64,000 bases of DNA from Truepera sp. Lineage in GTDB: Bacteria > Deinococcota > Deinococci > Deinococcales > Trueperaceae. Positions 33,540-36,763 of the stretch are shown piece by piece; the stretch's first letter is position 1, and each line of letters starts with the position of its first letter. Made by a program: the position numbers and the translations under genes. The notes beneath the pieces were generated by a model. That model had not been told where the DNA came from, did no database searches, and worked only from the letters and a program-made list of their open reading frames with translations. The stretch lies in assembly GCA_032027045.1 (NCBI GenBank), contig JAVSMU010000001.1, positions 1,635,756 through 1,699,755 of the forward strand, written 5' to 3'.

Positions 33540-35018
33540 ATGTCGGCTCTATACCAAAGGGCGCGGCCCGTCACCTTCGACGAGGTCGTCGGGCAAGATC
33601 ACGTCAAGGACGTCCTGACGTCGGCCATCGCACGCTCGCGTGTGGGCCATGCCTACCTCTTCTCCGGACCGCGCGGCGTGGGCAAGACCACCAGCGCCCG
33701 GCTCCTGGCCATGGCCGTGAACTGCGAGGCGCCGCTGGAGCAGCGTCCTTGCGGCAAGTGCGAGTCGTGCCGGTTGGTCCAGTCGGGGGCGCATCCCGAC
33801 GTCATCGAGCTCGATGCCGCCTCGAACAACTCGGTCGAGGACGTGCGCGACTTGCGCGAGCGGGCCATGCTCTCGAGCATGCGTGGGGGCACTCGGGTGT
33901 GGATCCTCGACGAGGCTCACATGTTCAGCAAGGCCGCCGCCAACGCCCTCCTCAAGACCCTCGAGGAGCCTCCCCCGGGCCTCATGTTCATCCTCGCGAC
34001 GACCGAGCCCGAGCGGCTGCCGCCGACGGTCCTGTCGCGCTGCCAGCACTTCCGCTTCAGGCGCCTCACCAACGCCGAGATCGTGGGCAAACTCGCCCGC
34101 CTCGCCAACGCCGCCGGCGTAGCGGCGGATACCTCGGCGCTCGACCTCGTGGCGCGCAGCGCCGACGGCGGCATGCGCGACGCCGAGTCGCTCCTGGACA
34201 GGCTGCTGGCCAGCGGCGAGGCCATCACGTTGCAGCGGGCCGAGGACGCCCTGGGGCTGCCGCCCCAGGAGCGGCTGCGGTCGATGGCCGAAGGGTTGGC
34301 CACGGGCGACCTCGCCCAACTGTTGGAGCAGGCCGGCCTGCTCTACCGCGCGGGCTTCGCCCCGCGGACGCTGGCGGAACAACTCGCCCGGACCCTGCGG
34401 GCGGCCCTGCACGCGAGGCTGGCCGGCGAACCTTGGCTGTCCTTGGGCGAGGACGAGCTCTTGAGGCTCCTGCACGCCCTCGACGACGAGCAGGAGCGCT
34501 TCGTGCGGCACGACGACCTCTACTCGCTGGAGGTGGCGCTGATCAAGGCGCGCAACGCGCTCTGCGCCAACGTGCCCGCGGCCTTCGTGGCGCAAGCAGC
34601 AGACGCGAGTCGAACGACGGCCCCGCCGCCTGAGACGGTCGCCCCGGCACCAGAATCCCCCGGCCCCCATCCCGACGCCGTGGGCGCGGTCGAAGCGCCG
34701 CAGGCCGCCACCGCGCCGGCCACCGTGCCGGCCGCCTCTGCCGCCGCGTTCTCGTGGCACGCGGTCAGGAGCCGCGCGGACGTCCGCCTCAAGGCCTTCC
34801 TCGCACCCGCTCGCGTGGAGCAAGGCGAGAACACGATCCGGGTCATCTTTCCCGAGGCCAACGAGTTCCACCACAAGCAGCTGCTGCTGCGGCTGGACGA
34901 GTTCGCCGCGCTGGTGGCCGAGGTTGCCGGTCCGGGCTTCGAGCTCGTCATCGACGGACCGGGGGGCGTCACCCGGGCGCCCAAGCCGGCCGCCGGTGGT
35001 GGTTCAAAAAAAGCCTGA
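33540..35018 (+). CDS. dnaX: DNA polymerase III gamma/tau subunit, zero-frame (short, gamma-like) product
   Basis: DnaX is the clamp-loader ATPase of the replicative polymerase. The 492-residue zero-frame product starts SALYQRARPVTFDEVVGQDHV. It has Walker A FSGPRGVGKTT near residue 41, a four-Cys zinc module (CEAPLEQRPCGKCESC) near 61-77, Walker B VWILDEAHM near 121 and the SRC motif TVLSRCQHFRF. Domain III and part of the following region are present. Translation ends GGGSKKA-stop just after seven A residues. A -1 shift there opens a 229-codon extension, so this product would be the short form. An in-frame start at 33408 is rejected because it lies upstream of the promoter box and lacks family sequence. 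Confidence 0.95.
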   Translation: MSALYQRARPVTFDEVVGQDHVKDVLTSAIARSRVGHAYLFSGPRGVGKTTSARLLAMAVNCEAPLEQRPCGKCESCRLVQSGAHPDVIELDAASNNSVEDVRDLRERAMLSSMRGGTRVWILDEAHMFSKAAANALLKTLEEPPPGLMFILATTEPERLPPTVLSRCQHFRFRRLTNAEIVGKLARLANAAGVAADTSALDLVARSADGGMRDAESLLDRLLASGEAITLQRAEDALGLPPQERLRSMAEGLATGDLAQLLEQAGLLYRAGFAPRTLAEQLARTLRAALHARLAGEPWLSLGEDELLRLLHALDDEQERFVRHDDLYSLEVALIKARNALCANVPAAFVAQAADASRTTAPPPETVAPAPESPGPHPDAVGAVEAPQAATAPATVPAASAAAFSWHAVRSRADVRLKAFLAPARVEQGENTIRVIFPEANEFHHKQLLLRLDEFAALVAEVAGPGFELVIDGPGGVTRAPKPAAGGGSKKA

Positions 35019-35701
35019 CGGGGCGCCCCACCGCCGCCCCGAAGGCAACCCGGGACGAACGCGCTCCTGGCCCACCTGCAGCCGCGGAGACCGCGGCGTC
35101 CGCCGAGAGTCCCTCGCAAGCGCCCCCGAACACCAAGCGGCACACGAAGCCACGGCCCGCCGCCGGGCCACCCGCCGCCGGGCCCCCCGCCGCCGGGCCC
35201 CCCGCCGCCGAGCCGCCCGCCGCCGAGCCGCCCGCCGCCGAGCCGCCTGCGGCCACGGCGCCGCCACCCACCGAGCTTCCGCCCGCACCCGAGGTCGACG
35301 ACCTCATCCCGGACGACGTCGAGTCTTCGTTCGGCGGCGCCACAGGCGACCTGTGGGACGAGTCGCAAGCACCGGCCCACACGGCGCCCGCAGCGCATGA
35401 GCCACCCGCTGCGGCACGAAAGGCCGCGGAGCCCGTGCCCGCCCCCAAACCGAAGCGACGCGCGCCCGCCAAGCCCTCCCGCTCGGCAGGCGCCTCCCCC
35501 GCCGTCGCCTCCGACACGCCCGAGGGCAAGGCTTTCGCGGAGGTCCAGACGCTGTTCCCGGGCCGCGTCCTGGAAGTGGTCGCGCTCAGACCAGGGCGCG
35601 GCGAGGAAGCGGCGCCGACCGCCTCGGAGGGAACCGACGACGCCTTCACCGCCGGTTACGATGTTCGAGACGAGCAGGATGGCCCGGGCGACGACGCCTG
35701 A
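33540..35701 (+). CDS. dnaX: DNA polymerase III tau-like product made by -1 frameshift at A7
   Basis: Reading shifts from frame 0 to -1 on A_AAA_AAA (35006-35012) and continues AGC CTG ACG to the TGA at 35699-35701. This adds 229 residues for about 720 in total. The extension has codon use like a real gene (strong G/C at third positions). It contains a Pro/Ala pentapeptide repeat, an acidic segment (EVDDLIPDDVESSFGG) and a C-terminal EVQTLFPGRVLEVVALRP that looks like a folded tail. In other bacteria tau uses this region to bind the polymerase and helicase. Alternatives are transcriptional slippage on the A-run, or an assembly error of one A. Confidence 0.75.
34995..35041 (+). promoter_or_regulatory. 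Programmed -1 frameshift signal in dnaX
   Basis: The slippery heptamer A_AAA_AAA is at 35006-35012 in the correct phase (TCA AAA AAA). The zero-frame stop TGA is at 35016-35018. A hairpin CGGGGCG (35019-35025)/CGCCCCG (35035-35041) with a 9-nt loop begins 6 nt after the heptamer. GGTGGTGG just upstream could act as a Shine-Dalgarno-like stimulator. Confidence 0.78.
35158..35253 (+). repeat. 15-bp tandem repeat encoding Pro-Pro-Ala-Ala-Gly/Glu in the dnaX extension
   Basis: About six 15-bp units read GPPAA three times and then EPPAA three times in the -1 frame. The length is divisible by three, and the unit switches from Gly to Glu through GGG/GAG. Confidence 0.85.
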
Positions 35702-36735: not shown

Positions 36736-36763
36736 TTGACGCCGCGAAGGGCGTGCGTATAAT
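36736..36763 (+). promoter_or_regulatory. topA promoter, near-consensus sigma-70 type
   Basis: TTGACG (36736-36741), a 16-nt spacer and a perfect TATAAT (36758-36763). The transcript would carry a leader of about 28 nt with an AGGGGT ribosome-binding site (36786-36791). It is the best -35/-10 promoter in the window. Confidence 0.8.

Follow-up and report, generated by a model that had tools for sequence, protein, structure and literature searches.

Conserved signals point to programmed -1 ribosomal frameshifting as the source of long DnaX in the Trueperaceae

Bacteria of the family Trueperaceae very probably make the long product of dnaX, the DNA-replication gene for the clamp loader, by programmed -1 ribosomal frameshifting, as judged by comparison of sequences across the family. 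In the proposed mechanism, ribosomes on A_AAA_AAA (or A_AAA_AAG), their P and A sites both filled by tRNA-Lys, would encounter a stem downstream and, in many relatives, also a Shine-Dalgarno (SD)-like stretch upstream. A fraction of them would shift back by one base, skip the stop located one codon on, and add a disordered linker and a tail with the conserved LFPGRV helix motif at its end. Unshifted ribosomes would release a short DnaX comprising the ATPase domains and a domain-V-like fold, without the tail. The core claim of a preliminary description of this locus, that a -1 shift gives the long form with the usual roles reversed, is thus supported: heptamer phase, stop, stem pairing and -1 protein are conserved family-wide.

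Results

Truepera is a radiation-resistant bacterium. The window, by which we mean the whole 64-kb stretch of Truepera DNA analysed, carries dnaX with the features given below. The heptamer, stop, spacer, stem and -1 frame coordinates previously assigned to it proved exact in a direct check of the sequence.

33540..35018, + strand: dnaX zero frame, with ATG at 33540; 492 aa plus TGA, the short (gamma-like) DnaX
34725..34979, + strand: C-terminal globular domain of short DnaX, tau domain V / tau-C type, by profile, PF20964 and AlphaFold/Foldseek
34993..35001, + strand: weak SD-like stretch CCGGTGGTG upstream of the heptamer; anti-SD duplex -6.4 kcal/mol
35006..35012, + strand: slippery heptamer A_AAA_AAA, from direct sequence; zero-frame codons TCA AAA AAA GCC TGA
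35013-35018, + strand: spacer GCCTGA, 6 nt between heptamer and stem
35016..35018, + strand: zero-frame stop TGA, one codon (GCC) past the heptamer; position fixed in 30 genomes
35019..35041, + strand: hairpin, putative stimulator; arms 35019-35025 CGGGGCG and 35035-35041 CGCCCCG, 7 G/C pairs, 9-nt loop
35012..35701, + strand: -1 frame extension, 229 aa plus TGA (35699-35701); linker and tail of the long (tau-like) DnaX
35155..35247, + strand: 15-nt tandem repeats, P-A-A-G/E-P linker of the extension, by Tandem Repeats Finder
35294..35356, + strand: linker motif VDDLIPDDVESSFGGATGDLW (family form ELPPDFW), conserved in relatives
35531..35581, + strand: conserved tail motif AFAEVQTLFPGRVLEVV, with near-invariant F-P-G in 28 sequences, the only confident helix and homology to sister-family tau

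The short product matches NCBIfam NF011524/PRK14963 above the cut-off (E 4.8e-202), making it DnaX of the PRK14963 type, and AAA+ and lid domains were detected within the zero frame (33540..35018). The gene ybaB begins 56 nt beyond the end of the -1 frame (35701) and is followed by recR and topA. Upstream of topA, the window has a near-consensus sigma-70 promoter-like site (36736-36763, TTGACG-16-TATAAT).

The case for frameshifting is built on conservation in relatives, not on the hairpin or open frame of the window. One A7 run was seen in the 64-kb window against 0.34 expected, and the 2.92-Mb genome has two in all on both strands, the dnaX site being one. The hairpin, singled out earlier as a perfect 7-bp all-GC stem, is indeed that and covaries in the family, but it is weak in the window alone. 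It reached z = -2.3 to -3.7 against dinucleotide shuffles, but only z = -0.57 when the -1 frame was shuffled synonymously, and it is ordinary among other segments across the same GC-rich dnaX. The SD-like stretch is weak as well, its duplex energy corresponding to the 11.5th percentile of dnaX in an anti-SD duplex scan. Because other frames and the opposite strand are likewise open at the locus, the open -1 frame alone is weak evidence. As stand-alone evidence, the open frame and hairpin of the window were dropped, being too weak in GC-rich DNA. In codon usage, the extension scored best in the -1 frame (+0.06 per codon vs -0.13 to -0.60 in the other five frames; dnaX itself scored +0.30 but belongs to the training set), in keeping with the coding-like codon use noted before.

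Relatives were drawn from a first search of 101 genomes, in which dnaX was present in 101/101 and 38 genomes shared the family of the window. The Trueperaceae set comprises 39 genomes, of which 35 have a readable junction (it is unreadable in G001, G023, G026 and G034); most of the relatives are drafts assembled from metagenomes, and genomes that share ancestry do not count as independent observations. The preliminary description had named dnaX of related genomes as a check on its claim, and the outcome was favourable: a heptamer, one codon, a stop and a downstream hairpin occur in the same phase in 30 of the 35 readable genomes, representing 13 genera. Seventeen of these heptamers are A7, twelve are A_AAA_AAG (A6G) and one is G_GGA_AAA; the X_XXY_YYZ pattern in zero-frame phase, characteristic of -1 frameshifting of the E. 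coli dnaX type, is accordingly found in 30/35. The stop varies in identity at a constant position (21 TGA, 5 TAG, 4 TAA).

These data also settle the main rival raised earlier, namely that one A is missing through sequencing or assembly error and dnaX is a single ordinary frame. Homopolymer runs are error-prone, and two relatives (G029 and G009) do have an uninterrupted frame. Against this, the same junction recurs in 30 genomes of 13 genera with differing stops and heptamers, including a single-contig genome (G017, 3,260,398 bp) that reads A_AAA_AAG CCC TAG and has the hairpin. For comparison, the finished Truepera radiovictrix genome has 3,260,398 bp, 153x coverage and an error below 1 in 100,000 (PMC3072082). 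The missing-base explanation is refuted for the family, and we give it next to no credence.

The reversed layout is absent from 5 of the 35 genomes (G009, G012, G014, G019 and G029), and four of these (all except G019) read on in frame into all or the first part of the extension. In none of the five is the short form the only one kept, and none loses the tail. G012 (L050) has an A9 run and, like Thermus, reads the long form in frame, an apparent return to Thermus-type slippage; this genome is AT-richer and nested among frameshift-type relatives. G009 has no A-run and an uninterrupted frame. G014 also lacks a run, and its frame is open through the remaining 34 bases of the contig, so that the uninterrupted frame is only partly seen. 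In G029 (L057), AAG AAA AGC stands in frame, the slippery site being lost and the frame restored; its sister is the frameshift-type genome G035. Finally, G019 (L051) has A7 in another phase (AAA AAA ATA GTC TGA) with an open -1 tail. That phase is unsuited to tandem slippage and may reflect slippage or a draft error. In the DnaX tree, the Trueperaceae are well supported, the reversed layout occupies deep branches and the exceptions are scattered, which suggests one origin and several escapes. A scan of dnaX from the other phyla sampled here gave no convincing reversed case.

The signal is constrained at the nucleotide level. Just before the two Lys codons, 29 of the 30 genomes have an A, even though codons ending in A account for 2-29% of the codons in these genes. 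As this A falls in TCA, CCA, AGA, CGA, GTA, GCA, TTA, ACA and AAA codons, protein sequence does not explain it. The stem begins 6 nt past the heptamer, within the range expected of a stimulatory stem-loop (about 5-9 nt downstream), and its arms covary between genera (one genome per genus; z between -5.1 and -6.2, with p at 2e-4, the lowest value that 5,000 permutations allow). For this test the arms were permuted among genomes without an alignment, because MAFFT failed to align the 3' arms in the downstream region. The arms are GGAG/CTCC in seven genomes and mostly GGGG/CCCC in twenty (Fisher 4e-5), and the exchange between the two occurs inside the genus of the window itself. A combined z of -10.3 against synonymous shuffles over the 30 genomes is overstated, since relatives are not independent. 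SD-like stretches, which in shifting of the E. coli dnaX type lie about 10 nt upstream as stimulators, are enriched in the family (mean percentile 0.11, with 13 of the 30 genomes falling under the 5th percentile), that of the window being weak. Reading A_AAA_AAA requires just the UUU tRNA, and the genome of the window also encodes tRNA-Lys(CUU), which a pattern scan found in G000, G010, G017 and G025. A tie between heptamer type and tRNA-Lys(CUU) was considered and dropped, as genomes bearing the CUU tRNA show both heptamer types.

Two kinds of slippage could produce such a site. Under transcriptional slippage, RNA polymerase would add or drop an A in the run, and the mixed mRNAs would give both proteins by ordinary translation. 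Such slippage is established for Thermus dnaX (PMC1088944, PMC5009743), and was favoured even for an A7 run in Chlorobium by Antonov et al. (PMC3711429). Sister families have A8-A10 runs at the homologous codon, after the same domain, and within the Trueperaceae the A9 of G012 and the A7 of G019, which lies out of tandem-slip phase, point the same way. However, the run is A6 followed by G in 12 of 30 genomes and GGGAAAA in one. These variants are tandem-slip sites and poor transcriptional slip sites, which argues against RNA polymerase slippage. Moreover, transcriptional slippage needs neither a fixed phase and stop nor a conserved, covarying stem 6 nt downstream, whereas ribosomal tandem slippage is marked by a fixed phase, six or seven A and a stem at constant spacing. 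We therefore consider transcriptional slippage unlikely; that ribosomes and not RNA polymerase slip, we infer from these comparisons. With ribosomal shifting, the Trueperaceae would have trimmed the A-run to six or seven residues, fixed its phase and retained a stem at constant spacing.

The -1 frame encodes a conserved protein end. Among relatives, the extension is 76-288 aa long and retains the ELPPDFW-like motif in its centre and an LQxLFPGRV motif towards the C-terminus, with the frame open to ybaB; F, P and G of the tail motif are nearly invariant (28 sequences). A profile of the tail aligned with the C-termini that tau of sister families carries in frame (hhalign E 4e-6, probability 87%), the match lying at DPRFxxLxxLFGGR, about 25 residues before the end. 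By this homology, which extends to tau of the Thermus type, the -1 frame would restore the ordinary tau end, as expected of a reversed dnaX whose -1 frame encodes the conserved tau C-terminus. The only helix that AlphaFold placed with confidence spans residues 170-181, the rest of the chain being of low confidence; as modelled, linker and tail are disordered apart from this one conserved helix. The 15-nt array (window 35155-35247) has 6.2 copies and codes for proline-alanine repeats. In G036 (L061), the LFPGRV motif is lost near the end of the extension, probably through a draft frameshift.

Because the extension is fast-evolving and largely of low complexity, it could be seen as a case of tolerated decay, with short DnaX as the only product and a relic -1 frame, or of a tail that is translated on its own. 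The conservation of F, P and G and the frame that stays open to ybaB speak against decay, as does dN, which is below dS in every pair tested. Within the genus, dN/dS was only moderately low, at 0.37-0.61 in all but one pair and 0.91 in the most diverged. In addition, the extension of the window contains no methionine, and the tail persists in every exception. Decay or separate translation is thus highly improbable compared to frameshifting.

We also characterized the end of the short form. A 30-homologue profile of the last ~85 residues before the linker matches Thermus aquaticus tau-C (4iqj_M, E 4.7e-9), and DnaX_C PF20964 was found in 30/30 members; chain M of PDB 4iqj also includes the Thermus tail. 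The domain was modelled by AlphaFold with pLDDT 84, and in Foldseek the model is similar to E. coli tau of 5fku_E (probability 0.96, TM 0.65), although E is 0.31. Since the short form ends past the tau-C domain, it corresponds to tau without its tail and not to E. coli gamma, from which domain V is missing. The gamma/tau reversal that had been proposed therefore holds in so far as the long form needs the -1 shift, but the short form, which keeps a domain-V-like fold, is not E. coli gamma-like.

Discussion

The Trueperaceae signal combines traits of known dnaX systems. As in E. coli, there is a tandem-Lys heptamer (A_AAA_AAG in 12 relatives, A_AAA_AAA in the window), a downstream stem-loop and, in many relatives, an SD-like element. 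In E. coli, however, the shifted product is the short gamma, without domains IV and V, whereas in the Trueperaceae it would be the long form. With the A9 transcriptional slippage of Thermus thermophilus, the site shares its homologous position past the same tau-C domain and a homologous tail on the long form. It differs in its six or seven A, fixed phase and conserved stem, and in that the zero frame of the template does not encode the long product. A homopolymer of the Thermus type (A8-A10) is not what we found: the window has A7, nearly all relatives have A6G or A7, and A9 occurs only in G012. The class-level search added only genomes of Thermaceae type and no Deinococcaceae. In one sister family (f4; L074, L075, L097, L099), the run is A9 or A10 and the zero frame holds the stop of the short form, so that the reversed layout exists there too, presumably by slippage.

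Inverted roles had previously been taken as a departure from known systems, but a reversed layout is already in print (PMC3711429, PMC5009743). Antonov et al. 2013 (PMC3711429) reported reversed dnaX, with tau needing recoding, in 17 genes, and favoured slippage. Their two-ORF dnaX genes (Chlorobium, Chloroherpeton and species with 10 A) likewise have a zero-frame stop right after the A-run and gain tau by recoding. There slippage was proposed, whereas A6G, GGGAAAA and stem covariation point to ribosomal shifting in the Trueperaceae. The main text of that paper contains no mention of Truepera. The review by Atkins et al. 2016 (PMC5009743) describes dnaX genes in which tau requires recoding and states that one nucleotide can reverse the roles if shifting is near 50%; the Trueperaceae look like such a case. 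It also presents Chlorobium phaeobacteroides dnaX, noted as unpublished, as a ribosomal candidate with reversed roles and suggested E. coli-like stimulatory signals; that species belongs to another phylum, and the passage on it gives no comparative set. Our literature search, to which subscription journals contributed little, returned no paper tying Truepera to dnaX recoding. What is new is thus a case that spans a whole family, in which comparison of genomes provides evidence for ribosomal shifting, the reversed layout itself being known in a few unrelated bacteria.

Jergic et al. 2007 reportedly place, in their title, the alpha-binding site of the E. coli protein, and by analogy the Trueperaceae tail may bind polymerase alpha. 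If so, shift frequency would set the number of polymerases per clamp loader. For a broader scenario, the arguments seem to us evenly balanced: that the polymerase-binding tail is made only through ribosomal frameshifting across the Trueperaceae, at a site that replaced an older transcriptional-slippage site in the same place, that ribosomes and not RNA polymerase determine how many polymerases each clamp loader carries, and that several lineages escaped by restoring one frame.

For annotation, these data carry a warning, as dnaX of the Trueperaceae will be called truncated. The reversed dnaX layout gains a large comparative set, and sister families in the phylum use transcriptional slippage at the same spot, offering one homologous site at which two recoding mechanisms can be studied. 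Given that the shift appears to add only the tail, which would be polymerase-binding by analogy, and that four lineages kept only the long frame, the purpose of short DnaX becomes testable by comparison.
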